From: a virus
IMG/VR virus record: IMGVR_UViG_3300015241_000004
Span: 1-55,970 of that record
DNA: 55,970 bases
Reading direction: 5' to 3' (one strand)
Shown: in pieces, positions 21,606-47,810 of the stretch
How the letters are laid out: each line of letters opens with the position of its first letter
Position numbering within the stretch: the stretch's first letter is position 1
The notes under the pieces: model-generated
Told to the model about the DNA's origin: nothing
Database searches by the model: none
Seen by the model: only the letters and a program-made list of their open reading frames with translations
Position numbers and translations under genes: made by a program

Positions 21606-23144
21606 TCAAATCGTGGCGGTTGATTCATCGTAACGTTCATCGCGCGCTTCGCGGAAGGCGTCGCGCTTCTGGCCCTCGTCTTTCGGCAACGACTTGATCC
21701 AGGGGCGGGATAGACACGCATAGCGGCCATCGTCGGCGGCGTGATCTTCGGCATCGGTATCGAGATCTTCAGCGCGGTTCTTGTCGTGCTGCAGGACCGG
21801 AACCGTCCGGATGAAGTCACTGCACGTTGAAAACACATATAAGGCCGGACGCCCGGTCGACCAGTTGATCGAACCGTCTTCGAGACGCTTGGCCGTTCCG
21901 ACCAACCGCGATCGCATCTGATCCCAACCACCCATCGCGCCGGCCTTTTCGCGATCTCCCGTCTGTCGGGTAACGCGCGCGTTGTCGGCTCGTATAAAGC
22001 TCGCAAGCTTTGCGGTTTCGGCGAGCAACTCATCATTGATGCGCTCAGCTATCGACGGGCCGCCGTCTTCGGCGAATGCGGACGGATCGAGCACGCCGTA
22101 GCTGAGTTTACTGCGGTCGTCGCGTTCGCGGCTTACAATACCCCTACCAACCTGTTCGGCAGTTAGCTTGCCGCCAACCGCGCCATACCACTCGCGGTAC
22201 CGAACGAGGGACCCGCGCGGAATGACGCGCCCGTCCGGTAACCTAAAGTCTTCGCCAGCGACCGCCCACCATCCGATAGAAAAAGGCGCGTACGACCCCC
22301 AGTCACCGGACCGAAACCGCAACCAATGTCCCGGGATCAAGAACGGTGCGACGACGTGCTGTTCGTTGCTCCATTCGGCAAAGAATGCGCCTTCGATGGC
22401 GGTCCAGTCGCCTTCCAGCCAGGCTTTGACGAGCTGAGCAGAGCCAACCAGATGAAGCCGCGAGATGTAGCCGGGATCACTATTGAGCAGGATGCGGTTA
22501 TTGGATATCCGCGACGGGATCACGGCAATCCGATGCTCATCGCCGTTCGGCAGCTTGCGGCGCAACACCTTCGGATGCAGCGGAAACGGATGCAGTTGGT
22601 AGCGTTGCCGGATCCAGTGCTGCCCGGCACCGCCGGGGTTGGCGGTCAGGATCAGTTGAACGGGAACACTGTGCGCGGAACGTAAGACGCCGAACAGCCG
22701 CTCGATCGGAGCCGGGGCAGGATACTGGCCGGCTTCCTCAACCCACGCATCGGTGACGTTGCGGCCCTGGTATTCATCGGCATCCTGCACGCTTTCGAGA
22801 TACTTGAACCGGACCTTGCCGCCGTTTGGCATCAGCCATCCGCGATTTTCGATGTAGCGGCCACCCAGCGGGGTGTAGATTTCCTTGGAGCGGTCGATTG
22901 CATCTTCGGCAGAGACCGACGTTCGGCGAAACATGATGGCGTTGAAGTGTGCGCCGTAGCGGCGTTCTTTCAACGCCCATTTGCCCAGAACGCCATCGGT
23001 CTTGCCGCCGCCTCGGGCACCGCCGAACAGGACTTCTGCAAACGGGCAACAACACAGGTCGTCTTGCGGGCCTTCCTGTGGCGACCAGGAACGGTCGCGG
23101 TCGTGGGCCACATGGGCATCGACCAGCGGCGCAGGAACGTTCAT
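21606..23144 (-). CDS. terL: Terminase large subunit
   Basis: A 512-residue packaging motor. Residues 41-49 (GGARGGGKT) are the Walker A loop; residues 130-139 (VTDAWVEEAG) are Walker B with the catalytic Glu; LTANPGG near residue 166 is the coupling motif. The C-terminal RNase H-type nuclease shows its acidic residues in SGDWGS, VLDPSAFAED and EDHAADDGRYA. It begins four bases after terS ends. It cuts and pumps DNA through the portal. Confidence 0.92.
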   Translation of the reverse strand: MNVPAPLVDAHVAHDRDRSWSPQEGPQDDLCCCPFAEVLFGGARGGGKTDGVLGKWALKERRYGAHFNAIMFRRTSVSAEDAIDRSKEIYTPLGGRYIENRGWLMPNGGKVRFKYLESVQDADEYQGRNVTDAWVEEAGQYPAPAPIERLFGVLRSAHSVPVQLILTANPGGAGQHWIRQRYQLHPFPLHPKVLRRKLPNGDEHRIAVIPSRISNNRILLNSDPGYISRLHLVGSAQLVKAWLEGDWTAIEGAFFAEWSNEQHVVAPFLIPGHWLRFRSGDWGSYAPFSIGWWAVAGEDFRLPDGRVIPRGSLVRYREWYGAVGGKLTAEQVGRGIVSRERDDRSKLSYGVLDPSAFAEDGGPSIAERINDELLAETAKLASFIRADNARVTRQTGDREKAGAMGGWDQMRSRLVGTAKRLEDGSINWSTGRPALYVFSTCSDFIRTVPVLQHDKNRAEDLDTDAEDHAADDGRYACLSRPWIKSLPKDEGQKRDAFREARDERYDESTATI

Positions 23145-23147
23145 GGT

Positions 23148-23780
23148 CTAGCCAGGAGCGGCGCGCTGAGCTTCCCAATCCGCTTCCGACATCGGCTTTT
23201 CCGAGATCAAATACAGTGAAGCTGGTCCCTTGCCGCTCGGATCGGTCAGGGCGGTCTTGGTGACCGACTTGAAGCCGTGCATGTCGCGCAGTTGCGCGAT
23301 GGCCTGCAACGCGTTGTCGCGCTCGAAGTCAACCAGAACCCCGGTATCCTTGTCGAACTTGAAGCCGGCAATGATCGCGCCGTACTCGGATGCCGCGACC
23401 TTATCCCAGTCGATCAGCGGCGACTTGACGACCTTTTCTTCGGTATCATCCTCGCCCTTCTGAATGATGATGACGCGGTCGACCATCGTCGCAAAATCAA
23501 AGATGTTCCCATAAGCCGCGCGCTCCAGCCGCTCTTCCAGCCGGGCGCGCTTGGCCGCGATCATCGCCTCATCCTGACCGAGCGAACGGTAATAGGCAAT
23601 CTGCGCCAGCACGGCATTATCGTTCTCCCACTTGGTGGCCAGGCCGTTCTCGACCTTGCCGCCGGCGCGTCGACAGGCTTCCGCCGGCGGAATGCCGAGC
23701 GAGCGCTCGAAGGCGTAGGCCTTCTTCTGCACGCTGATTTTCTTCGGCGGCTGGATTGTGGGATGCGCAACGTCGGACAT
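23148..23780 (-). CDS. terS: Terminase small subunit
   Basis: About 210 residues from the ATG at 23780; an in-frame ATG at 23804 is possible and neither has a strong ribosome site. N-terminal HTH region: QKKAYAFERSLGIPPAEACR followed by GGKVENGLATKWENDNAV, as in DNA-recognition domains of small terminases. The next part (KRARLEERLERAAYGNIFDF) is the oligomerisation segment. It is the first gene after the terminator cluster, so it heads the late operon. Confidence 0.8.
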   Translation of the reverse strand: MSDVAHPTIQPPKKISVQKKAYAFERSLGIPPAEACRRAGGKVENGLATKWENDNAVLAQIAYYRSLGQDEAMIAAKRARLEERLERAAYGNIFDFATMVDRVIIIQKGEDDTEEKVVKSPLIDWDKVAASEYGAIIAGFKFDKDTGVLVDFERDNALQAIAQLRDMHGFKSVTKTALTDPSGKGPASLYLISEKPMSEADWEAQRAAPG

Positions 23781-23943
23781 GGGCGTGAGTGGATTCCAAA
23801 ACATTCCGGGCTGACTCAGTTTCGCCGCAATAGAAAATCGGGCCGCTTGCTTTGGAGGGCTCCGTACAAGCGGCCCAAGTCTAGGGAGGAAACGCCCAAG
23901 GAGGGCAGCGGAGGCTCCGTAGCTACCGCACACCCTATGCAAA

Positions 23944-23972
23944 TGAAAAAGCCCGGCACTGAGGGCCGGGCT
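23944..23972 (-). terminator. Rho-independent terminator in front of terminase
   Basis: Perfect 8-bp stem AGCCCGGC / GCCGGGCT with a 7-base loop, followed on the minus strand by TTTTTCATTT. It would stop leftward transcripts before terS unless the polymerase is modified. Confidence 0.85.
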
Positions 23973-23974
23973 AT

Positions 23975-23992
23975 GCCGCTTTCGAAAGCGGC
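23975..23992. promoter_or_regulatory. 18-bp perfect palindrome between two terminators
   Basis: GCCGCTTTCGAAAGCGGC forms an 8-to-9-bp hairpin and lies just upstream (in leftward direction) of the 23.95-kb terminator. It lacks a T tail in either direction. It could be a protein site, an RNA hairpin for antitermination, or a helper for the neighbouring terminator. Confidence 0.6.
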
Positions 23993-24086
23993 CAAAATGC
24001 TAATACTCTCCAAAGTACATCAGGAAGGGGCTGTTACATGACGATCTCCCGGGACTGAGGCCGCTCAGTACGGCTGTCTATAAATG

Positions 24087-24117
24087 CAAAAAGCCCCACG
24101 CGTTTCCGCCGGGGCTT
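24087..24117 (-). terminator. Rho-independent terminator after the early-left operon
   Basis: Stem AAGCCCC / GGGGCTT around a 13-base loop that can extend pairing, followed on the minus strand by TTTTTGCATTT. It lies 24 bases after the stop of the 68-residue gene. With the one at 23.95 kb it makes a tandem block in front of late genes. Confidence 0.8.
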
Positions 24118-24140
24118 ATGCGAAGCGGAAATTCGCGGCC

Positions 24141-24347
24141 TTAAAGCGGCTCTCCAAGAGACCAAGATGGCATCGGCAGGCCTTGGTGCCTGCATCGCTC
24201 AAACTCTTGAGCGATACGATCCCAAGCTTCGCCCATTGTTTTCCAGCGCGCTTCGCGACTGGCTTGGTCAGGCTCGGTATCGAGAGCAAGCTGAACCGGG
24301 GATCTCGCAGCTAGCGCGAATATCTCAACAAGAGATTTTTCAGCCAT
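24141..24347 (-). CDS. Small helical protein after the NusG-like gene
   Basis: 68 residues from an ATG at 24347 with GAGGAG five bases upstream. Sequence MAEKSLVEIFALAARSPVQL then a charged helix with Trp (ARWKTMGEAWDRIAQEFERC). No known motif. It is the last gene before the tandem terminators and lies in the untranslated interval where an antiterminator would act. Confidence 0.65.
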   Translation of the reverse strand: MAEKSLVEIFALAARSPVQLALDTEPDQASREARWKTMGEAWDRIAQEFERCRHQGLPMPSWSLGEPL

Positions 24348-24370
24348 GACGCTCCTCAAAATCTATTGGC

Positions 24371-24412
24371 GGGGGAGCCGGTCTTCCCGCAAAGTTGATC
24401 CGGCTCTCCCCC
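24371..24412 (-). promoter_or_regulatory. Long GC-rich hairpin downstream of the NusG-like gene
   Basis: GGGGGAGCCGG (24371-24381) pairs with CCGGCTCTCCCCC (24400-24412), 11 pairs with a two-base bulge. No T-run follows in either direction, so it is not a simple terminator. With the small ACTCGC/GCGAGT hairpin at 24454-24471 it makes a structured RNA between the NusG-like gene and the terminators, a candidate cis-acting antitermination RNA. Confidence 0.5.
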
Positions 24413-24453
24413 ACTGGCGATCCCTACCGCTACCGGACCCCGAAAGCTCCGCT

Positions 24454-24471
24454 ACTCGCCTATAAGCGAGT
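24454..24471 (-). promoter_or_regulatory. Short perfect hairpin
   Basis: ACTCGC and GCGAGT pair around a 6-base loop (CTATAA on the plus strand), 22 bases after the NusG-like stop. It is part of the same structured interval; role unknown. Confidence 0.35.
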
Positions 24472-24492
24472 TGCGCGAGCTAGAGCTTCCAG

Positions 24493-25164
24493 CTATCTCG
24501 CCATTCCAGCGGCAGGGTCCGCTGTAACTGGCTCGATCCGGTCCGCCGTCGTCTTGACGCGAACCGTGCGCTTCATGATTTCCATCAGTAGGCTGATTCG
24601 TCCATCATCGTCTATGTCGGCGACGACGCCGCGGCGTCCACCCAACACCTCTTCCACCAAAAACCTGACGGTTTCGCCCACTTTCGGGATGTAAACCGGA
24701 GCGTTTTTGCGGCCTTTTTTGCGATAATACATCTCGCGCTCGCCGGCTTCGATGTACTGGATCACCTGCATGGCGATCGGCCGCACGATGGCAAAATCCT
24801 CACCGAACTTCATGAATGGGTTGGAGAGCATGCCCGGGGTGGAGCGGATGCAGTCATGCTTTGCTTCGACGACCTTTTCGCTGACCAGGATCATCCGGGG
24901 AAACAGCGGCATCGCAACGTCAGGATGATCCTCGCCTTCGGCATGCCGGCGCGCCGAAATGCGGGCTGCTCTAAGGATCGTCGGCAGGTAGAACGGAACC
25001 TTGCGAAGGATCAGGTTGGCTTGAGCCGTCATCTCGCGGCCGGGCTCCGTGTGCAGGATGAAATAGGTGGCATCTGGCGCTGGCGTCAGATCGATCGTTT
25101 CCTCGATCGGCACGTAGCCGACGAACTGGCCGATTTTGTACAGGGTTGGTGCGCTGGTAGCCAT
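24493..25164 (-). CDS. NusG-like (NGN-KOW) transcription factor
   Basis: 223 residues from the ATG at 25164, preceded by GGAGGG at ideal spacing; an in-frame GTG at 25185 overlaps the upstream stop and is an alternative. The region YFILHTEPGREMTAQANLIL with a later FPRMILVSE matches the NGN domain, which binds the RNA polymerase clamp. The C-terminal block beginning IPKVGETVRFLVEEVLGGRR and continuing GVVADIDDDGRISLLMEI is a KOW domain. NusG paralogues such as RfaH make polymerase read through terminators. Its place just ahead of tandem terminators and the late operon suggests the late antiterminator. Confidence 0.75.
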   Translation of the reverse strand: MATSAPTLYKIGQFVGYVPIEETIDLTPAPDATYFILHTEPGREMTAQANLILRKVPFYLPTILRAARISARRHAEGEDHPDVAMPLFPRMILVSEKVVEAKHDCIRSTPGMLSNPFMKFGEDFAIVRPIAMQVIQYIEAGEREMYYRKKGRKNAPVYIPKVGETVRFLVEEVLGGRRGVVADIDDDGRISLLMEIMKRTVRVKTTADRIEPVTADPAAGMAR

Positions 25165-25181
25165 GCTTTTGCCCTCCGTTT

Positions 25182-26357
25182 TCACTTGAAATCCGCCAGT
25201 TCCGCCTCGTTCATTTCGCCCGCCGGGCTAGCCTCGGCTGTGTAGATTTTGCCCGTGACCGACGGTGCCCATGGCCAGGGCACGCGATCGCCTTCCTTGA
25301 AGTGTTTGCGAACCGCGATCGACACGGTTTCGCGCAACAGCGCTTCCCATGAACCGGCGCCTTGGCGCGTCGCGATCACCCATTCCGAAGCGGGCGGTAT
25401 CTGCGCCAGCGCCAGCAGTTGCGGCGTCATCGGTTTGCGGTACGATACGCCATCGGAACGGGCGTAGATCGCGCGGAACCCTTGGGCACAGCCGGCGATC
25501 TCGTGCAGCGCCATCAGCGCCTTGGCCTCGATGCTGTCGCGGGCGAACACTGCGTTCGGCGCGATGCCAGCCGCTTTCTGCGCCTCCAGCAGCGTCCAGC
25601 GTTTTTGCTCGAGGTAGTTCCAGCCTGCCGGAACGTTTTTCCGCCCGAGGCGTTTGAGATTTTCGAGGAACGGCATGATGCCGGCGAGCGCATCGACCTC
25701 CTCGGGCTCCGTCAGCGCTTCGGCGGCATAGGCGGTTCGCTGGCGATCATCCGCAGCCGCTGTTGGCCACCTCGCTTCGAACGAATTCAGGAATTTTACT
25801 TTTCGATCCTTCGCGCGCGCATCTCTCTCACGTTCAATGAGGGGACGTTCTAAGGGGACGTTCTTGGTGCCAACGTATGGATTGGCACCCGTGCCATCCC
25901 ATGCATTGGCACCCGGGTGCTGATCTGTTGGCACCCCCTCCTCTGAATTCTGGGGGGTGCCAACCGGTTGGCACCCCCCCTCTTCGGATACGGTTTCTGC
26001 ATGGCTCGGCTCGGTCTCTTCATCTGCGTCCGGGGTGATGCTTTCGAAGGCATAATCGTCGCGATCGAGCAATACGCGATATGCATAGGAGCGCGACGGA
26101 CGGCCGCCGGCCTCCTCGACCTCGATATCTCGCCGCTTTTTTTCGACCCATTTTGCTTCATAGAGCCGTTCCAGCGAATTTTGTAAGGAGGCGCGGGAAC
26201 ACGAAATCTCGCTTGCCATCTTCACTTGGCTGCGCGTGCACCATCCGGCCTTGTCGGTATGACGGCCCAACAGGCAGAGCACCTGAAGGTCGCGCGGTTC
26301 CAGCGAACGATCGGTGACGGCGCCGGCTGGGATGATGGAAAAACGGGGGTGGCTCAA
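25182..26357 (-). CDS. Winged-helix DNA-binding protein, possible replication initiator
   Basis: About 391 residues from a TTG at 26357 that overlaps the upstream stop (TTGA); the open frame extends further upstream but without natural-looking sequence. Residues 1-85 (SHPRFSIIPAGAVTDRSLEP then CLLGRHTDKAGWCTRSQVKM) form a MarR/replication-type winged helix. The middle is acidic and low-complexity, the C-terminus is mixed alpha/beta (WEALLRETVSIAVRKHFKEG). Proteins of this layout in alphaproteobacterial phages are usually taken as replication proteins; that is inference. No primase or helicase motif is seen. Confidence 0.6.
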   Translation of the reverse strand: MSHPRFSIIPAGAVTDRSLEPRDLQVLCLLGRHTDKAGWCTRSQVKMASEISCSRASLQNSLERLYEAKWVEKKRRDIEVEEAGGRPSRSYAYRVLLDRDDYAFESITPDADEETEPSHAETVSEEGGCQPVGTPQNSEEGVPTDQHPGANAWDGTGANPYVGTKNVPLERPLIERERDARAKDRKVKFLNSFEARWPTAAADDRQRTAYAAEALTEPEEVDALAGIMPFLENLKRLGRKNVPAGWNYLEQKRWTLLEAQKAAGIAPNAVFARDSIEAKALMALHEIAGCAQGFRAIYARSDGVSYRKPMTPQLLALAQIPPASEWVIATRQGAGSWEALLRETVSIAVRKHFKEGDRVPWPWAPSVTGKIYTAEASPAGEMNEAELADFK

Positions 26358-26566
26358 ATTTGGTCCTGTGCAGAAGTCGGAGAACGGGGACAAGCGGAAG
26401 GATTTTCGCCCTCGCGAGGCGACGAAGGGACTGCGGCATGAGACGATGCGAGGCTGGGGGAGCAACATGTCCAGATGTCGCGCTGCCAGACACGCCAGCG
26501 CGTTGGCGGTTCCAGGAAGAGCATGCCGCCGCGCGTGAAACCGACGGTTTCGGATTTGAGGATCAT
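26354..26566 (-). CDS. Small protein, unknown
   Basis: 70 residues; the start overlaps the upstream stop by ATGA and its stop overlaps the TTG of the next gene. N-terminus MILKSETVGFTRGGMLFLEP with several Trp (RWRVWQRDIWTC), then a Ser/Pro-rich tail with low structure. Support rests on the overlaps at both ends and on the natural N-terminal half. Confidence 0.5.
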   Translation of the reverse strand: MILKSETVGFTRGGMLFLEPPTRWRVWQRDIWTCCSPSLASSHAAVPSSPREGENPSACPRSPTSAQDQI

Positions 26567-27060
26567 TGCCCCGCCTCTTTCAGCCTTCGCTCATCAAGCG
26601 CGGAGCGGCCCGGCAGCGGGTCGCCGAAGAACGCTGCGGTCAGCGTTGGATGTTCCAATTTCTTGCGCGCGTCGCGATCGAGCAACGCCGCGATAACCTC
26701 GGGGCGCAGCACCATGCCGCCGGGCGGCACATTGCTATGCCGCGCGCCGTGATACCTGCCACAGGACGAGCCAGCGGGACGGCCGAGCCGCGTGTCGATC
26801 TCCGACCAGGTCGCGTGTTCGACTTCGCGGAGCCGGTTCATTTCCGCAATGTCGGCGTCAGTCCAGTCGCGGCGGGTTCGGGTAGTGGTTTTGCCGACAA
26901 CCCGCCCTCGCCGTATCCGGGATAGCATGGTGTGGCAGGTCCCCTTGGAGCGTCCGAGGAAGGCTGCGATATCGACCATGTCGAGGCCTTGACCGTGCAT
27001 TCGCACGAGCGTGGCTTTGTCATCGTCGGTCCAGGGCTGTTGCGGCGCGCGCTCTTTCAC
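26563..27060 (-). CDS. SANT/GcrA-like DNA-binding protein
   Basis: 165 residues from a GTG overlapping the previous stop (GTGA). Two repeats resemble Myb/SANT or GcrA-type HTH units: QPWTDDDKATLVRMHGQGLD with IAAFLGRSKGTCHTMLSRIR, and RDWTDADIAEMNRLREVEHA with RLGRPAGSSCGRYHG. GcrA is the alphaproteobacterial cell-cycle regulator that acts with sigma-70 at CcrM-methylated promoters. A phage-encoded relative could steer host or phage transcription. Confidence 0.55.
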   Translation of the reverse strand: MKERAPQQPWTDDDKATLVRMHGQGLDMVDIAAFLGRSKGTCHTMLSRIRRGRVVGKTTTRTRRDWTDADIAEMNRLREVEHATWSEIDTRLGRPAGSSCGRYHGARHSNVPPGGMVLRPEVIAALLDRDARKKLEHPTLTAAFFGDPLPGRSALDERRLKEAGQ

Positions 27061-27239
27061 GTCGGCACCCCGCAAGCCGGGCAGCCGTGAATCCACTCGC
27101 CGCCGAATTTTCTGACCTTCCAGCCCTCGCGCTGCATGATGGTGCGGCACTCGGAAAAGTCTTTTGTGTCGGTATCCAGTACCTCATCGTAGCTGTCGCA
27201 TTCGACATGGAGGATGCCGCCGTTTTGCCGGTCGATCAT
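27057..27239 (-). CDS. Small zinc-ribbon-like protein
   Basis: 60 residues, ATGA-coupled. Contains HVECDSYDE and a C-terminal HGCPACGVPT, so two Cys pairs could bind zinc. Similar small proteins occur widely in phage early regions; function unknown. Confidence 0.6.
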   Translation of the reverse strand: MIDRQNGGILHVECDSYDEVLDTDTKDFSECRTIMQREGWKVRKFGGEWIHGCPACGVPT

Positions 27240-27952
27240 GATGCCTCCGGCTCTAACGCTGCCGCGTGGTGATGAGTGTCAGAGAGGTAGAGGCAGCGCG
27301 ACGCATCCTTAAGGTTTTGGGCGACTAACCACGCTTCGGCGGCGGCCGTGAGTTCAGCTTCGAAAGGTGCATCATTTTCCAACGCGACCAACAGCGGATC
27401 AAGATCGTCCGCTACCAGCGGCTCTTTGCGGCGCGCCCCCTCAATAATTGGCGGAATCAGATCGGGGCGGCCATGCCGAAATAGCGCTGCGGCGAAGATG
27501 TCTTTGAGGTCCGCGAGTAGCGGACCCCAATTCGCAGCCGCGAATTCATCACCTACCTCGCCTTCGTAATTATGATCTTCGTTCGCCCCTTCGAAGTGCC
27601 AAACGATGTCGGCATAGATGTCGCCTTTAGTACAACCATCGTGTAGCCAAAGCACAAACATTTCGCGCAGGTCCGGCACGTCCAGTTCGTGGGGAATGCA
27701 GAAGCCGGTCGAACAGGCTTCATCCGGATAGTCGCGCTGCGCTTCTGCGAGAGCATCCTCGCGCGTATCGAAAGGACCGTTCCAGTATTCCCCGTCTTGG
27801 ATGCTATAGCCCCACCATCCCTTGGTGGGCTCAACCGGAAGCGGTGGTGCCATGGTTGCCTCAGGGGCAGCAACTGCTGCGGAAGGCATGCAAGCGACTG
27901 CGGCAGCCGCTGCCGCACCGATCAGGACTTCACGTCGCGATAGATTTGTCAT
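27236..27952 (-). CDS. Protein with Tat-type signal peptide
   Basis: 238 residues. The N-terminus MTNLSRREVLIGAAAAAAVA then CMPSAAVAA is a twin-arginine (Tat) signal: S-R-R-E-V-L, then a hydrophobic Ala run and an A-x-A site. The mature part begins with a short module (KGWWGYSIQDGEYWNGPFDT, then REDALAEAQRD) that looks like a common cytoplasmic phage module, followed by an acidic helical region. Tat exports folded proteins, so the two parts are an unexpected match. Function unknown. Confidence 0.65.
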   Translation of the reverse strand: MTNLSRREVLIGAAAAAAVACMPSAAVAAPEATMAPPLPVEPTKGWWGYSIQDGEYWNGPFDTREDALAEAQRDYPDEACSTGFCIPHELDVPDLREMFVLWLHDGCTKGDIYADIVWHFEGANEDHNYEGEVGDEFAAANWGPLLADLKDIFAAALFRHGRPDLIPPIIEGARRKEPLVADDLDPLLVALENDAPFEAELTAAAEAWLVAQNLKDASRCLYLSDTHHHAAALEPEAS

Positions 27953-29480: not shown

Positions 29481-31451
29481 TCAGCCTCCGCTAGGTTGCT
29501 GTCGTCGAGGGGGGGGGGGGGTATTGGCCGCGATCAATTCCGCCATGTTGAACAATGGTGGATTGAGTTCATCGAGGGCTTCGGCGCACCGCGGATTGAG
29601 CCAAAGCACTTCGGTTCGATCAAGCGCGCCGTCGGCGTGCGTCTCGACCACCTCGCGGCGCCAGGCGGAAAGCTTCTCTTCATAAAGTGCACTCGAATAT
29701 CCCGAGATTACGATCATCGCGCGCGCCTGCAGCACGCGGTCCAATAGTGCGACATGATCATCGTCAGATAGCTCGAAGGCATAGGCGTGGAACGCGCGTC
29801 CGCCGCGCCGCTTGGCCGAACGGGTTTCCTGCACGTAAGGCGGATCCAGATAAATCAGCGTATCGGCAGCGTCGTACCGCTCGATCACTTGCAGTGCGGG
29901 ACGGCATTCCAACAGCACGCCTTGAATGCGATCAGTGATCGCCTGCAGGGCCCCGGGCATGCCGGGCCACTCGCCCGCAGGCAGCGCGCCACCCCTGTTT
30001 ACGAGCGAGGCCCGAAACCCCGTCGATCTCTCGGAAATAGCAGATGAAGAGCCGTGCCCCATGTAGGAGCGGACGATCAGCCGCCTCGCGCGTTCTATCG
30101 GGTCTTCCGTAGTCTCGAATGCCGAATCGTATTCGTCGCGCGCAAAGGGCGTCAGCACCAGGCGCCGGCACAGCTCGGACGCCATCTCCAAGTCCCGCAA
30201 TACGGCGAAGAGATTCACCAAATTGCCATCGATGTCGTTATAGCACTCGCCGGCCGATCGCGGCTTGCGCAGCAGAACGGACGCCGCGCCGCCGAATGGC
30301 TCAACATAGACCCGATGCGGAGGGAAATGGGAAATGATCCAAGGCGCAAGCCTGAACTTGCCGCCCAGATATCGCAGGACCGGACGCTCAACCTCCCTCG
30401 GATGCGCGTAGACCTTGCCGAAGTCCAGCAGCATCTTTTGCGTTTCCGTGATCGGCTGCGGCTCCCGCCACGCCAGGTCCGTCGCCGCCCGCAATAGCTC
30501 CGACCAATCGTCCTGTGGTTCGGCCGCCATGTCTGCCGCAACCAAGCCTGCGCCAATTGGCGCATCCTCTAAAAGGGTCGAGCCCGCGCCGGATGGGGGC
30601 GCGTGAGGCGCGGGCTCTGATCGCATGGCGCGTGGGGCCGCGTCTGCGATATCGGAAGAAGGGGCGTCCGCGCCGTGGATGCCTGCACTATCAGGCGCGG
30701 ACGCGATCGACGCGGGTTGGCCTATCGCGTCGGGTTGGGATTTCTTTTTTCGTTTCGGTTTGACGGCCGGCGCCTCGCCGCCGATCGGCTCGCCGCGCCC
30801 GTCGATCTTGTCTGCGGTCGCATCGAACTTCTGCCAGTGCGCCTCGATCGCGGCATCCATCCGTTCGTGGCCGGCGCTGCCATAGGCATAGGAGAAGGTT
30901 TCGCCGCAGCTGCAGGTGCCTAAGGTGACCATGTGGCCGTTGATGACGGGGTTGGTCATCGCGAAAGTATGCCCGGCGGGGAAGATTTTGCGGGTGCGGT
31001 GGGTCTCGATCAGGGAGTGGACGATGGGATCGGTTATACCGAGAGTATCTTTTTCGGCGTCGGTAATAGGTTGATTCAAGCTGCCAGCGTGATCGCTGGT
31101 AGAATCTTCGATCACCCTGTCTTCGTCACTTGCGGCAACTTCCCTGCCCGGGTGATCGATAGGCGCTCCCACATCGGCAGTGGCCGCTTGAACCAGCCCT
31201 TCTTCCTTCAACAGCAATGCCCATTCGATGATCCGTCCGGCATAGCCTTCGGTCCATCGTGTTCCTTCGCCATCCTTGGCGCGCATGTAGCGGCGGGCGC
31301 GGCGGATCATCTTTGCGATGCCCTCGCGCAGGTACTGGTTGCGGTCTTCGTCGACATCGATCGACGGCAGCGTGATAGTGACGCCGGGCGAACGCTCGCG
31401 GTCGAAGTAGAAGGTTTCGGGCTGAGAGGTGGCGCGGGCTGTTGCGGTCAT
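29481..31451 (-). CDS. Fusion protein with C-terminal Dam-type N6-adenine methyltransferase
   Basis: 656 residues from the ATG at 31451. Part 1 (to about residue 85) is a helical module ending EWALLLKEEG. Then comes repeat-derived linker (LVQAATADVGAPIDHPG…). Part 2 (about 135-225) has VTLGTCSCGETFSYAYGSAG, a possible metal site. After a second low-complexity linker with a palindrome copy comes a D12-class methyltransferase (from about residue 320): RYLGGKFRLAPWI, VEPFGGAASVLL and the catalytic YLDPPY. It methylates adenine in DNA. An internal ATG at 30530 (MAAEPQDDW) could give a 349-residue methyltransferase alone. The frame is also open upstream to 32720. The C-terminus passes through a C13 tract. 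Confidence 0.75.
   Translation of the reverse strand: MTATARATSQPETFYFDRERSPGVTITLPSIDVDEDRNQYLREGIAKMIRRARRYMRAKDGEGTRWTEGYAGRIIEWALLLKEEGLVQAATADVGAPIDHPGREVAASDEDRVIEDSTSDHAGSLNQPITDAEKDTLGITDPIVHSLIETHRTRKIFPAGHTFAMTNPVINGHMVTLGTCSCGETFSYAYGSAGHERMDAAIEAHWQKFDATADKIDGRGEPIGGEAPAVKPKRKKKSQPDAIGQPASIASAPDSAGIHGADAPSSDIADAAPRAMRSEPAPHAPPSGAGSTLLEDAPIGAGLVAADMAAEPQDDWSELLRAATDLAWREPQPITETQKMLLDFGKVYAHPREVERPVLRYLGGKFRLAPWIISHFPPHRVYVEPFGGAASVLLRKPRSAGECYNDIDGNLVNLFAVLRDLEMASELCRRLVLTPFARDEYDSAFETTEDPIERARRLIVRSYMGHGSSSAISERSTGFRASLVNRGGALPAGEWPGMPGALQAITDRIQGVLLECRPALQVIERYDAADTLIYLDPPYVQETRSAKRRGGRAFHAYAFELSDDDHVALLDRVLQARAMIVISGYSSALYEEKLSAWRREVVETHADGALDRTEVLWLNPRCAEALDELNPPLFNMAELIAANTPPPPRRQQPSGG
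29509..29521. repeat. G13/C13 homopolymer in the methyltransferase gene
   Basis: Thirteen G in a row on the plus strand (C13 in the gene), 26 bases before its stop. With C13 the protein ends PPPPRRQQPSGG. With C12 or C15 it would end LDDSNLAEADA and its TGA would overlap the next ATG by ATGA. Such tracts slip easily; this is a candidate phase-variable tail or an assembly length error. Confidence 0.75.
30549..30564. repeat. Palindrome TGCGCCAATTGGCGCA, copy 3
   Basis: A perfect copy in the linker of the methyltransferase fusion, read A-P-I-G-A (LLEDAPIGAGLVAADM), just before the possible internal start at 30530. Confidence 0.85.
31071..31199. repeat. Divergent full-length dispersed repeat (R8)
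   Basis: It has the family ends TTGATTCA…TTGAACCAGCC and internal GTGATCG boxes, but a diverged centre. It is read through in frame by the methyltransferase fusion (LVQAATADVGAPIDHPG to HAGSLNQ) and lies between two protein modules. Confidence 0.6.
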
Positions 31452-31459
31452 GGATTGCA

Positions 31460-31663
31460 TCCCGAACCGAGCCCAGAGAGTTCGGATCGCATACGCTGCT
31501 TCCAGCGGGACAACGCCGTTGCCGAGCATGCGAAGTCGGTCCACGCGAGCAACGTCCAGCCGGGAGGCCAGCCCATCAGCCACTCGACGAAAAGCGGGTT
31601 CAAGCTCCGGCGCTCTTTCGAGGGCACCCCGCCAACCGGATAGATCGGATGGGCCGGGAGGGA
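31460..31663 (-). pseudogene. C-terminal part of the cytosine methyltransferase in a shifted frame
   Basis: In the frame +1 to the Dcm gene, this stretch encodes FPPGPSDLSGWRGALERAPE… and VDRLRMLGNGVVPLEAAYAI, which is the conserved C-terminal block (motifs IX-X) of C5 methyltransferases. It has no stop before the downstream fusion gene. Removing one T from the T4 run at 31663-31666 would join it to the N-terminal frame as TAFPPGPSD. Confidence 0.65.
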
Positions 31664-32724
31664 AAAGCGGTCGACCGCCTGGCGTCCTCAGACCGTCCTG
31701 CGAAGTCGGCGACGATCCCTTGCGGTTGGTGTTGCCGTTGACCGTCGGCGTTGACCATTGCATCGCTTGCGCCGGCAGCGGCGTCCCGCCCGCTCCAAAG
31801 CTCTGGTTCGGTCCGCCCTTCTCGCCGTCCGTCGCCCTCGGGGTGGACCAGTTCGCCGCAACCCGGCCCAGAAGGCCGTTCTCCGGCACGTTCGCCAGAT
31901 TGCCGGTATCCTTCCAGTCGCGTGAGGTCGGAGTTGGCCAGTTCGACACGGCATCGTCGAGATTGCTGCGACCGCTCTTGATCCGCGCCGCCGCCAATTC
32001 CGGCGACGGAAAACCCCTCCGATCGTCCCCAAGCTTCGCCGACGGAGTCGGCCAAGCCTTCGCCGCTATCGCGAGTGGCGTCCCCATGCCGTTGCCGTTG
32101 ATGCCCTTCGCCTTGATTTCCTGCCGGCGCGCGAAGAACGTTTCCGGCTGCTCGCCATCGTTGCTGACCGCCGCGTCCATTGTCGGCCACAGCGAGGATA
32201 AACAACCGTTCTCTCTTGTGGCTCGCGCCAACCTCTGCCGCCGTAAACAGTCCCGCCTCAACCCGGAAACCCAGTCTTTGTAGGTCACGGCGGACCCGGA
32301 GCGCTCCCGGATCGAGGCCGGGCTTCGCCGAAAGCATGCCGGGGACGTTTTCGATGAGGACGAACCAGGCTCCGGACTGCACGATGATGCGCCGCGCATC
32401 ACTCCAGAGGTCGCGCTCGTCATCGCTGCCGCGTCGTTTTCCGGCGAGGGAATGAGGCTGGCACGGGATGCCGCCAATGACGCCATCCACGAGGCCGCGC
32501 CATGGGCGGCCGTCGAAGGTTCCAACATCGCTCCAAATAGCGGCTTCAGCCAGGAGACCTTTTTGTATCGCGCAGACCAGTTGTGAGGCCGCGAATGCTT
32601 CCCTCTCCACACACACGACTGAGCGAGCATCTGGCATTGCCAGCTCGACGCCGAGATCGAGGCCGCCGCCTCCGGTGCAGAGGCTGATGAGGTTGAAGCG
32701 TCGGGGATGTAGAGCCACATTCAC
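31600..32724 (-). CDS. DNA cytosine-5 methyltransferase, frameshifted before its last motif
   Basis: 374 residues from a GTG overlapping the upstream stop (GTGA). Motif I is LCTGGGGLDLG (15-25), motif IV is GGIPCQPHSLAG with catalytic Cys88, motif VI is IENVPGM (124-130), and motif VIII is SHKRERLF (168-175). After about residue 180 the frame is Arg/Gly-rich and loses homology; motif IX-X (LGNGVVP) lies in the other frame at 31460-31663. So the protein as read lacks the C-terminal segment that closes the fold and is probably inactive unless a +1 frameshift or an assembly error is involved. It could protect phage DNA from host restriction. Confidence 0.75.
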   Translation of the reverse strand: MNVALHPRRFNLISLCTGGGGLDLGVELAMPDARSVVCVEREAFAASQLVCAIQKGLLAEAAIWSDVGTFDGRPWRGLVDGVIGGIPCQPHSLAGKRRGSDDERDLWSDARRIIVQSGAWFVLIENVPGMLSAKPGLDPGALRVRRDLQRLGFRVEAGLFTAAEVGASHKRERLFILAVADNGRGGQQRWRAAGNVLRAPAGNQGEGHQRQRHGDATRDSGEGLADSVGEAWGRSEGFSVAGIGGGADQERSQQSRRCRVELANSDLTRLEGYRQSGERAGERPSGPGCGELVHPEGDGRREGRTEPELWSGRDAAAGASDAMVNADGQRQHQPQGIVADFAGRSEDARRSTAFPSRPIRSIRLAGCPRKSAGA

Positions 32725-34475: not shown

Positions 34476-34739
34476 CTATGGTCCCAACACATGCCGCAAC
34501 GCTTCGAAGTCGCTCAATTCCGCGCGGGCGAAATAGACGATACTGCCATCCGGTGTACTGACGACACGCCGCGTGTAGCGCGTCTGCTTGATCTCGATGG
34601 ATGCCGCTGCAAGCCCGAAGTTTCGGTGTGCGGCGCGCACGGGCACGGTATCTGTCAGCACGACCTCGGCCTGGTCGTCATCGACCTTCTGGACGCGGCC
34701 TTCGTGCGGACCGCCGATTAGTCGGACCCAGAGGCTCAT
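34476..34739 (-). CDS. Small early protein, unknown
   Basis: 87 residues, ATGA-coupled. MSLWVRLIGGPHEGRVQKVD; beta-rich with VVLTDTVPVRAAHRNFGLAA. Similar short ‘GPHxG’ proteins are common in phages. Function unknown. Confidence 0.6.
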   Translation of the reverse strand: MSLWVRLIGGPHEGRVQKVDDDQAEVVLTDTVPVRAAHRNFGLAAASIEIKQTRYTRRVVSTPDGSIVYFARAELSDFEALRHVLGP

Positions 34740-36097
34740 GCGGCTTGCTCCTCACTGTCGATTTCGAGCGACGGTTGCTCCGGCGCTTCGTTCCCCCACG
34801 ATATCCATCCATCCCGCGCCCGCCGCGCGTTCAACTCGACCTTGGGCAGGCTTGGGAAATAATGTTCCGCGATTTCGTACTGGAAATCCGGCTTCTCGGA
34901 ATGATCACCCTTGGGTGCCTCGATCGCTGAATCGAATTGGTCGCCCATCGCGGGGCACGGCACCTTGCCCTTGACGCCGATCAACAGCAGTTCATGCCTG
35001 TCCCGCACCCAAAAACCTGTGCCGATCGAAGGCTTGATCCAGCAGAATTGCGAGACGTAGGTAAAACCCTGTAGCTCCATCACCTTGTGAGCGATCGCCG
35101 AAAACGACGCCGGACACCACATCAGATGGATACAATCTTCCGCGGCGATGCTCATGCGCTCGCGCTGGCGTTCGACGATCGCTTCCGGCGTCGAGGCTTC
35201 CTTGGCCGTGACGTAGTGGTTGGAGGCGTGGCGATCCATCCCGGTTTCCTCCGAGCGCACCTTGAAGTGCCATTCGAAGTCCGAGAGGATCAGGCCGGCC
35301 TTGATATCCGGCAGTGCGCGGATTTTGGCGCCGAGCTTTTGCTCCCGCTCGCCGCGCTTGCGCTTTTTCTCGGCCTGGTCCTCGACGCGGACCTCCTTCG
35401 CGGCTTTACGGATTTCTTTCTTGGCTTCCGCCGTGAGTTTGCCGGCCTCATCGCGGGGGAGCGCGTCGAGAATGGCCTTCTGCTCTTCCGATGGAAGGCG
35501 CGCCAACGCAGCCCCCGTATCGAGCGACACGGGCCCGGTCCTGACCGCCTCCATCAATTCTGGCGTGGCGCCAGCTTCGATGACCGCGGCACGTTCGACG
35601 CTGCGGCGCGGCACATTCATCAGCGTCGAGGCTTCGCCCAGGGAAAGCGGCGACGATCTTTCCTCCGTCGCGTGCTGATCTTGCTCTCCGAAATCAAGCG
35701 AGGGTCCGCCAATTGGCGCAGCCTGCCGCGAATGTTGATTGGCACCAAGCCTTAGCGTTGCGATCGAGGCCGCGATCAACGCCCGTTGCTTGTCGGTGAG
35801 ATCGCGCCGCTCAAGATTTTCGGCGATGACAAATTTGAGCGCGAATTCGTCGGTCCCTGTAAAAATCGCGTAGGCAACCGGCTTTCCGAGTTCGGCGAGT
35901 TCGCGCTCGCGATTGCGGCCGTCGAGGACGAAACCCTTGTGCAGAATGATCGGGTGGTTTTGGCCTTCGGCAAGAGAGGCGCGGAAACTCTCCCGACGTT
36001 CATCCGCCAGCATCGGGAACAGATTTGCGAACGGATGATGCTTCGGGCGCGGGGAGCCCGGCATCAACAAGCCGCCCGCTGCGAGGAAGGGGTTCAT
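34736..36097 (-). CDS. ParB-domain / MT-A70 adenine methyltransferase with variant active site
   Basis: 453 residues. Residues 20-100 form a ParB/Sulfiredoxin-like N-domain (HPIILHKGFVLDGRNRERE, then NLERRDLTDKQRALIAASIA). The second half is MT-A70-like: SFSAIAHKVMELQGFTYVSQ, then WVRDRHELLLIGVKG and ARDGWISWGNEAPEQ. At the catalytic DPPW/DPEW site the sequence is DFEW (273-276), so the proline after Asp is missing. It may be a weak enzyme or a DNA-binding decoy. A palindrome copy lies in the linker (AAPIGGP). It is ATGA-coupled on both sides. Confidence 0.7.
   Translation of the reverse strand: MNPFLAAGGLLMPGSPRPKHHPFANLFPMLADERRESFRASLAEGQNHPIILHKGFVLDGRNRERELAELGKPVAYAIFTGTDEFALKFVIAENLERRDLTDKQRALIAASIATLRLGANQHSRQAAPIGGPSLDFGEQDQHATEERSSPLSLGEASTLMNVPRRSVERAAVIEAGATPELMEAVRTGPVSLDTGAALARLPSEEQKAILDALPRDEAGKLTAEAKKEIRKAAKEVRVEDQAEKKRKRGEREQKLGAKIRALPDIKAGLILSDFEWHFKVRSEETGMDRHASNHYVTAKEASTPEAIVERQRERMSIAAEDCIHLMWCPASFSAIAHKVMELQGFTYVSQFCWIKPSIGTGFWVRDRHELLLIGVKGKVPCPAMGDQFDSAIEAPKGDHSEKPDFQYEIAEHYFPSLPKVELNARRARDGWISWGNEAPEQPSLEIDSEEQAA
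35705..35720. repeat. Palindrome copy 4 (one mismatch)
   Basis: TCCGCCAATTGGCGCA within the ParB-MT-A70 gene, read A-A-P-I-G-G. One base differs from the perfect palindrome. Confidence 0.75.
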
Positions 36098-46420: not shown

Positions 46421-46800
46421 CCTTCGCGGCCATCGATCTCATCCCCGAGGAAGTCCGAGCCGCCTTTGCGGGGTCCCCTCACTTGACGATGCCGGCGCTA
46501 GCCAAGGCACTCCGGATGGACTTAAAGACGCTTACCAGGCACCGGGAGGCCCAAAATCTCCCGGTGCATATCAAGGGAACCGGCCTTGAGCGGCGGCACT
46601 ACGTCTGTACCCTTGCCGACGTGGTCGAGTTCTACCGGCGTACGGGGGTGGCATGTCAGTCTTTCGGGTCCGAGGTTCGCCCTATTTCCAATTCGATTTC
46701 CAGATCAAGGGTCATCGCTTTTACGGGACCACGTCCCTTGCGAATGAACGTAAGGCTCGTGAGTTCGAAGACGGCCGCAAAGCCGAAGCCCGGCGCCTAG
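46417..46800 (+). CDS. Probable excisionase / HTH protein
   Basis: 127 residues, ATGA-coupled. LTMPALAKALRMDLKTLTRH then ERRHYVCTLADVVEFYRR is a winged HTH of the MerR/excisionase type. It overlaps the integrase gene by 148 bases; the last about 45 residues use that overlap and are less natural, so the ancestral protein probably ended near YRRTG. Likely directs integrase towards excision. Confidence 0.6.
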   Translation: MTFAAIDLIPEEVRAAFAGSPHLTMPALAKALRMDLKTLTRHREAQNLPVHIKGTGLERRHYVCTLADVVEFYRRTGVACQSFGSEVRPISNSISRSRVIAFTGPRPLRMNVRLVSSKTAAKPKPGA

Positions 46801-47810
46801 TCAAGGAATCCCTTGAGGCCGGCCGGCGGCCGATGACGGTCGGCGCGGCGTGCGATCGATGGTGGGATCAGGTCGGCCAGCACGGCAGCGACCCGGATCT
46901 GGAGCGGGCATTGGACTGGCTGAAAACCCAGATCGGCCCTGAGGTTGCGCTGCACGACATCAACGACGATATGGTCTCCGCGGCCGTCGAGGCCCGCAGG
47001 AAAGGCGTCATGCGCGCCGGCCGGGACGCCAAGGGCACCCAGCTTTATCGACCGATCGGCAACCGCACGGTCAACAAGACCGTTCCATCACTCTTGCGCC
47101 GCGTCATGAACAAGGCGCGCAAGGCATGGTCGGTCACGATCCTGAAGGAACCGGACTGGAAAGAGCACTTTCTCCCCGAACGCAAGCAGCCGGTTCGCGA
47201 GATTACCCCTGCGGAAGATGCCATACTCGACGCCGTCGAGAGCCGCGAATTCGCCGGGCTTCGGGAATTTGCCGAGATCATGGGCCTGCGGCGAAAGGAA
47301 ATGCTTCTGACGTGGCCGCAGGTGGATTTTGATCAGCGTATCATCCGGATCGTCGGCAAAGGCGGCGTGCCGGCCATTCTGCCGCTGACCATGCGGGCCT
47401 ATGAAATCCTTTGGCGCCTGCGCGGCCACGACAAGCTTTGGGTGTTTACCTTCGTTGCCCAGCGCACCAGGCGCTGCCCGAAGACCGACCGCAAGTTCAT
47501 CAAGGGCCAACGCTACCCGATGACCTATTATGGCATCGGCACCAACCGGCGCCGCAAATGGGCCAAGGCGGGCGTGGATGCGCGCTTGCACGATACGCGT
47601 CACACGACAGGCCAGCGCACCCTGCGCGCCACGGGTAACCTGAAGCTCGTGCAGACGCTATTGCGGCACACCGAGATCAGAACGACCGCGATGTTCTATA
47701 CCGATACCACTTTCGCCGATCTGCGCGCTGGCATGGAAAGCGTGGAATCCCAGAAAAAATCCCAGAGCGGAACTCTGCCGGATGCCAAGCCATTGAAGGA
47801 CAAAGCGTAA
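46653..47810 (+). CDS. int: Tyrosine integrase
   Basis: 385 residues. N-terminal arm-binding domain (SVFRVRGSPYFQFDFQIKGH), core-binding domain (60-180) and catalytic domain with Arg213 (GLRRKE), Lys236 (GKGG), His313-x-x-Arg316 (HDTRH), His339 (LRHTEIR) and nucleophile Tyr349 (MFYTDT). Its stop lies 18 bases before the tRNA-like att core, with direct repeats on both sides. Integrates the circular phage genome at a host tRNA gene. Confidence 0.92.
   Translation: MSVFRVRGSPYFQFDFQIKGHRFYGTTSLANERKAREFEDGRKAEARRLVKESLEAGRRPMTVGAACDRWWDQVGQHGSDPDLERALDWLKTQIGPEVALHDINDDMVSAAVEARRKGVMRAGRDAKGTQLYRPIGNRTVNKTVPSLLRRVMNKARKAWSVTILKEPDWKEHFLPERKQPVREITPAEDAILDAVESREFAGLREFAEIMGLRRKEMLLTWPQVDFDQRIIRIVGKGGVPAILPLTMRAYEILWRLRGHDKLWVFTFVAQRTRRCPKTDRKFIKGQRYPMTYYGIGTNRRRKWAKAGVDARLHDTRHTTGQRTLRATGNLKLVQTLLRHTEIRTTAMFYTDTTFADLRAGMESVESQKKSQSGTLPDAKPLKDKA
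47748..47766. repeat. 19-bp repeat flanking attP, left copy
   Basis: TCCCAGAAAAAATCCCAGA in the integrase 3' end; 18 of 19 bases match 48002-48020. Candidate integrase arm-binding or IHF-linked site. Confidence 0.6.

Follow-up and report, generated by a model that had tools for sequence, protein, structure and literature searches.

The interval between the replication genes and the late genes of this phage is probably a late-gene processive-antitermination cassette run by a NusG paralogue, as judged from sequence and its conservation. The window, that is, the whole stretch of 55,970 nucleotides analysed here, is an IMG/VR virus record. It carries an integrase gene at 46653-47810 and a tRNA-Ser close to one end, which together point to a temperate phage or prophage. 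On the minus strand, a replication-initiator-like gene (26468-25182) is followed by the NusG-like gene, a leader of ~700 nt, the first late ORF and terL (Table 1), and beyond terL by portal, head-closure, ejection and tail genes. A first-pass annotation had placed terS, terL and the virion genes downstream of the leader. This held for terL and the virion genes, whereas terS is presumed from position only, its ORF having no family match in Pfam or PHROG. The small ORF upstream of T1a had no family match in Pfam.

Table 1. Features of the cassette and its surroundings (window positions)
Feature	Positions	Strand	Remarks
NusG paralogue, 223 aa, NGN + KOW	24493..25164	-	Pfam/PHROG, AlphaFold2 model and PDB matches
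Small ORF, 68 aa, between nusG and T1a	24141..24347	-	RBS good by eye
Intrinsic terminator T1a	24088..24117	-	hairpin 24117-24091, z = -3.7, then TTTTT
ATAGA motif after T1a, extra terminator-ATAG unit	24077..24081	-	extra units in 7 loci
Intrinsic terminator T1b (main T1)	23946..23972	-	hairpin 23972-23950, z = -4.3, then TTTTT
ATAGG motif after T1b, candidate NusG-paralogue signal	23934..23938	-	tracks NusG
GTGCGGTAG + variable stem P1 of leader RNA	23910..23932	-	P1 poorly formed in window
MmgR/suhB-family RNA (RF00519)	23825..23913	-	59.1 bits, gathering 41, E = 3e-11
Terminator T2 (3' hairpin of the RNA + T-run)	23835..23876	-	hairpin 23876-23840, T-run to 23835
First late ORF, presumed terS	23148..23780	-	position only
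Terminase large subunit (terL)	21606..23144	-	PHROG 979, 5e-24

NusG paralogues such as RfaH suppress termination, and lambda Q does the same job by other means. RfaH has an alpha-helical autoinhibitory C-terminal domain, which refolds, and its recruitment goes via the ops element. The phage gene, with a GGAGG RBS directly 5' of it, encodes a protein that matched Pfam NusG above the cut-off (1.6e-6) and PHROG 6386, 'transcription antiterminator' (E = 9.4e-7). NusG families alone were matched in Pfam and PHROGs, and no homology to Q proteins was found there. The first-pass annotation had read NGN and KOW domains in this gene, and both folds were indeed adopted in the AlphaFold2 model (pLDDT 89.6). 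The closest match of the modelled NGN (residues 31-140) was RfaH in its elongation complex (Z 10.6), with the NGN of NusG at Z 9.1, and the modelled C-terminal barrel (residues 158-213) matched the KOW domain of NusG (Z 9.5). This C-terminal domain was a beta barrel only, in one AlphaFold2 model, a single model covering one fold. A profile of 51 relatives matched the solved structures of E. coli NusG (9e-36) and RfaH (1e-17). The Pfam search detected KOW in 11 of these 51 relatives and not in the window protein itself. As matched and modelled, the product is thus a diverged NusG paralogue with an NGN domain and a KOW barrel. Searches with this protein as query returned almost no relatives because the family diverges fast, and searches seeded with the terminase or the RNA were productive.

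Downstream of the gene, the two T-tailed terminators proposed at first were both recovered with their T-runs, and T1b was found in nearly all relatives. The absence of a strong promoter in the interval was likewise borne out: scanning 22500-27500 for promoters of the sigma70 type, the type covered, gave 0 against 1.2 expected. The RNAs proposed at 24371-24412 and 24454-24471 do fold (hairpin 24420-24365, z = -2.0 only; hairpin 24475-24450, z = -4.7), and the perfect palindrome is present at 23992-23975 (z = -2.1), but all three fall outside the conserved layout. They were discarded as parts of it, together with the 68-aa ORF, as not conserved among relatives; a hairpin after the nusG stop was seen among relatives in L001 only.

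What is conserved in the leader is, by its family match, an MmgR-like RNA at 23934-23835. It had been overlooked in the first-pass annotation, and its 3' hairpin is a third terminator, T2, lying 54 nt from the first late ATG (23780). The fold of 23934-23825 gave z = -2.8, and our RNA model R1 scored 86.8 bits against 23944-23870. Relatives scored 62.8 (L172), 50.3 (L106) and 42.3 bits (L084) with RF00519. The arm-to-arm pairing of P1 exceeded that of all 1000 shuffles, with compensatory changes at 7 of 10 pairs in relatives. The U-tract of T2 is weak in some phages. The leader also carries an ops-like string, GCGGTAG(CG).

The layout was first seen among terminase-seeded relatives, and a search with the RNA-core pattern GCTGCCCTN{2,8}GGGCGTTTCCTCC yielded 90 stretches in viral contigs. 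By construction of this pattern, the RNA core is invariant among them. In contrast, T1, the ATAGG motif, GTGCGGTAG, P1, T2 and the gene context lie outside the pattern and so constitute independent evidence. The order NusG paralogue, terminator, ATAGG, MmgR-like RNA, terminator, late genes was found in >50 viral contigs, as well as in two isolated Bradyrhizobium phages and several prophages. A NusG paralogue stood on the same strand ~70-930 nt upstream of the RNA at 58 of 91 oriented loci, the window included, and Pfam NusG was confirmed for 49 of the 51 paralogues tested. One pattern match in an unrelated MAG (L183), where the RNA is absent, was rejected as a chance match. The long ORFs downstream of the cassette encode large terminase subunits from several PHROG families and form three large unrelated clusters and others. 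These clusters are mixed on the NusG tree (11 changes), and the nearest NusG relative of the window (L169, 54% identity) has its terminase in another cluster. This indicates that the NusG gene and leader move between phages independently of the terminase.

The strongest link within the cassette is between the NusG gene and the terminator-ATAGG unit. At loci with at least 1 kb of upstream sequence, and with an AGG-type motif set picked after viewing the sequences, T1-motif and NusG occurred together 47 times, NusG alone 5 times, the T1-motif alone 0 times and neither 23 times (p = 8e-15), that is, the unit was present in 47/52 loci with NusG and 0/23 without. Each of the five NusG-only loci has a hairpin or a near-miss motif. 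A narrower motif followed 53/154 terminators located ≤1.3 kb downstream of NusG, against 29/1581 elsewhere (p = 3e-39); since related contigs are not fully independent and loci are often truncated, both p-values overstate the evidence. The motif lies 10-12 nt, rarely 14, from the first T of the terminator. The unit was also present 3' of NusG at loci not found via the RNA (L003, L007 and L013). Judged by this distribution, T1-ATAGG is the only leader element specific to the NusG gene, because GTGCGGTAG and P1 likewise occur in host copies that lack NusG. For the same reason, the ops-like string being kept in host copies without NusG, an ops element was not adopted as the recruitment site. A k-mer search of the NusG-to-T1 interval returned mainly pieces of further terminators.

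A late promoter of the lambda Q type carries a Q-binding element. We wondered whether the T1-ATAGG segment might hold a weak, factor-dependent late promoter resembling lambda pR', with the RNA starting near GTGCGG, T1 acting only as an insulator, and the paralogue loading in early elongation and passing T2 alone. We consider this unlikely. The start of the RNA may be conserved, as the sigma70-like promoter of the host copies ends right before GTGCGG, and many copies of TAGGNT still show the T, A and T expected of a -10 box. Yet no -35 hexamer is visible, the expected site being the variable terminator stem, and TAGGNT was rejected as an ordinary -10 box on this ground. Moreover, extra terminator-ATAG units lie between NusG and the main T1 at 7 loci including the window, where the remaining sequence of these loci would predict 0.05, and these units are not followed by the RNA.

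Antitermination at T2 is further suggested by the lack of space for a promoter behind it in many relatives. Behind the terminators of the window, no late promoter of the sigma70 type was detected. About half of the loci have an ORF of ≥90 codons starting ≤25 nt from T2, as judged from mechanically called start codons in GC-rich sequence. The GenBank annotation of the two isolated phages agrees, placing the first late gene ~15 nt after T2. Transcripts of such genes must therefore pass T2. It seems highly improbable that the paralogue targets Rho-dependent polarity or transcription-translation coupling along the late operon rather than the leader terminators. More distant phage paralogues do exist without the leader (L011, L014, L026, L034, L039), and RfaH, itself a NusG paralogue, is a strong Rho inhibitor (PMC5449661), but neither the expression of late ORFs starting 5-25 nt after T2 nor the near-perfect link between NusG and T1-ATAGG would be explained.

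A cluster of GANTC (CcrM) sites, GAGTC-N6-GAATC-N5-GAATC with a spacing of about one helical turn, occupies the gap between T2 and the first late ORF (23820-23780). Clustered sites are common to the terL group of the window (L003-L007, L087, L094), and the cluster could be a cos/pac or a methylation-sensitive site. Within the early operon, 29481-32720 encodes 1079 aa that include a D12-class adenine methyltransferase domain, and 34736-36097 encodes an MT-A70 protein (both minus strand).

The isolated carriers are the Bradyrhizobium phages ppBeUSDA76-1 and ppBdUSDA122-1, which laboratory Bradyrhizobium strains produce spontaneously (PMC10127595). Their NusG genes carry the labels 'ABC transporter substrate-binding protein' and, in the second phage, 'hypothetical protein'; the former label is the one given in GenBank to the paralogue at 4995-5672 of L172 (OP596613). 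In both phages the element lies mid-genome beside the terminase genes, and for this reason it was rejected as a phage attachment site in this layout. NusG also adjoins the RNA in prophages of G001 (B. viridifuturi, via L176), G009, G011 and G013, the NusG stretch in G011 having two stops inside the match. Two recorded Microcystis phages, PP395640 (L174 5001-5036) and OM681334 (L175 5001-5040), contain a 36-40 nt MmgR core near one late-gene end, beside the integrase in OM681334. This core may mark an attachment site within an sRNA gene of an alphaproteobacterium, in which case the recorded host would be doubtful.

The RNA model matched 96 of 98 Bradyrhizobium genomes, mostly with one copy of ~69-71 bits. 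In the core-type host copies inspected, a conserved sigma70-like promoter (CTTGCN ... CATATT) stands right before GTGCGG, and no terminator unit was found. The phage copy thus resembles a host sRNA in which the terminator-ATAGG unit stands where the promoter would be, and the sequences suggest a capture from host to phage. It is conceivable, though we hold it only tentatively, that phages captured a host core sRNA gene, swapped its promoter for a paralogue-responsive terminator-ATAGG unit and employ it as the late leader, the paralogue choosing between a host-mimicking sRNA and late mRNA. Terminator-ATAGG would then be a novel type of recruitment signal, one that is read at the terminator. Another class of MmgR-like copies with P1, also in Bradyrhizobium (L193, L194, L195, L197, L198, L203), shares an upstream block, ATTGAGCCGC..GATCGCGATC..TTAGCTAGGG, and no NusG gene was found near them. 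The L178 and L193-L195 copies have neither NusG nor a clear phage context.

Given the RF00519 homology, we also considered that the RNA acts mainly in trans, as a phage mimic of MmgR with an anti-Shine-Dalgarno stretch, its position before the late genes being incidental and the late genes being controlled otherwise. MmgR of Sinorhizobium is an Hfq-dependent trans-sRNA (PMC7143759), and L003, found without the RNA pattern, keeps GTTTCCTCCC despite a degraded P2. Replacement of the promoter region by a terminator speaks against this view, as does the NusG-to-late-gene position kept across unrelated terminases, and we regard it as improbable. A trans-acting role may nevertheless exist alongside the antitermination cassette.

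Collectively, the folds, the lack of promoter space in many relatives and the co-occurrence of NusG with T1-ATAGG support the candidate late antitermination switch of the first-pass annotation, the paralogue being the presumed antiterminator. The early (replication) operon would end with production of the paralogue. Polymerase leaving this operon would halt at T1a and T1b, and any leaked polymerase at T2, so that no more than a short MmgR-like RNA would result. With enough paralogue, elongating polymerase would be bound, most likely at the terminator-ATAGG units since no other leader element tracks the NusG gene, and the modified polymerase would pass T1 and T2 and so reach the genes for terminase and virion proteins. 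We infer from the layout the recruitment at T1-ATAGG, the read-through, the timing and the production of a short RNA. If true, this would explain how many temperate phages of alphaproteobacteria control their late genes, and would be a clear example of a phage genetic switch built around a host sRNA gene. Since the cassette is widespread, its conserved signal is short and mutable and its Bradyrhizobium phages are spontaneously produced, the proposal is directly testable.

The literature searched, of which coverage was partial, contained no account of a NusG paralogue serving a phage as late regulator. Like the MmgR/suhB sRNA (RF00519), the phage RNA has P2, the GUUUCCUCCC linker and a 3' terminator, and scores above the family cut-off. 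It differs in its extra 5' stem P1, also present in Bradyrhizobium host copies, in having T1-ATAGG at the promoter position and in sitting in a late leader. With lambda Q/pR'/tR' the locus shares the order of a regulator at the early operon's end, a short terminated leader RNA and the late genes, but the protein lacks Q homology and no recognisable promoter separates the regulator gene from the terminator. The RfaH/ops system resembles it in the NusG paralogue, the phage NGN being closest to RfaH, and in the ops-like string; in contrast, the phage keeps that string in common with NusG-less host copies, its modelled C-terminal domain is a beta barrel, and its gene adjoins the target. By analogy, LoaP is the closest working precedent. 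This NusG paralogue needs a leader hairpin and promotes read-through of leader intrinsic terminators (PMC12691694). In Bacillus, as here, a structured leader precedes the intrinsic terminators of a long operon, and the gene adjoins its target (PMC7819879). LoaP differs in that it needs a UNCG hairpin, a type not seen by eye in the conserved hairpins of the leader, the linked signal here being a terminator with ATAGG, and in that it targets biosynthetic clusters instead of phage late genes. The best reading is that the cassette would work like LoaP, RfaH or lambda Q while being filed under none of them.
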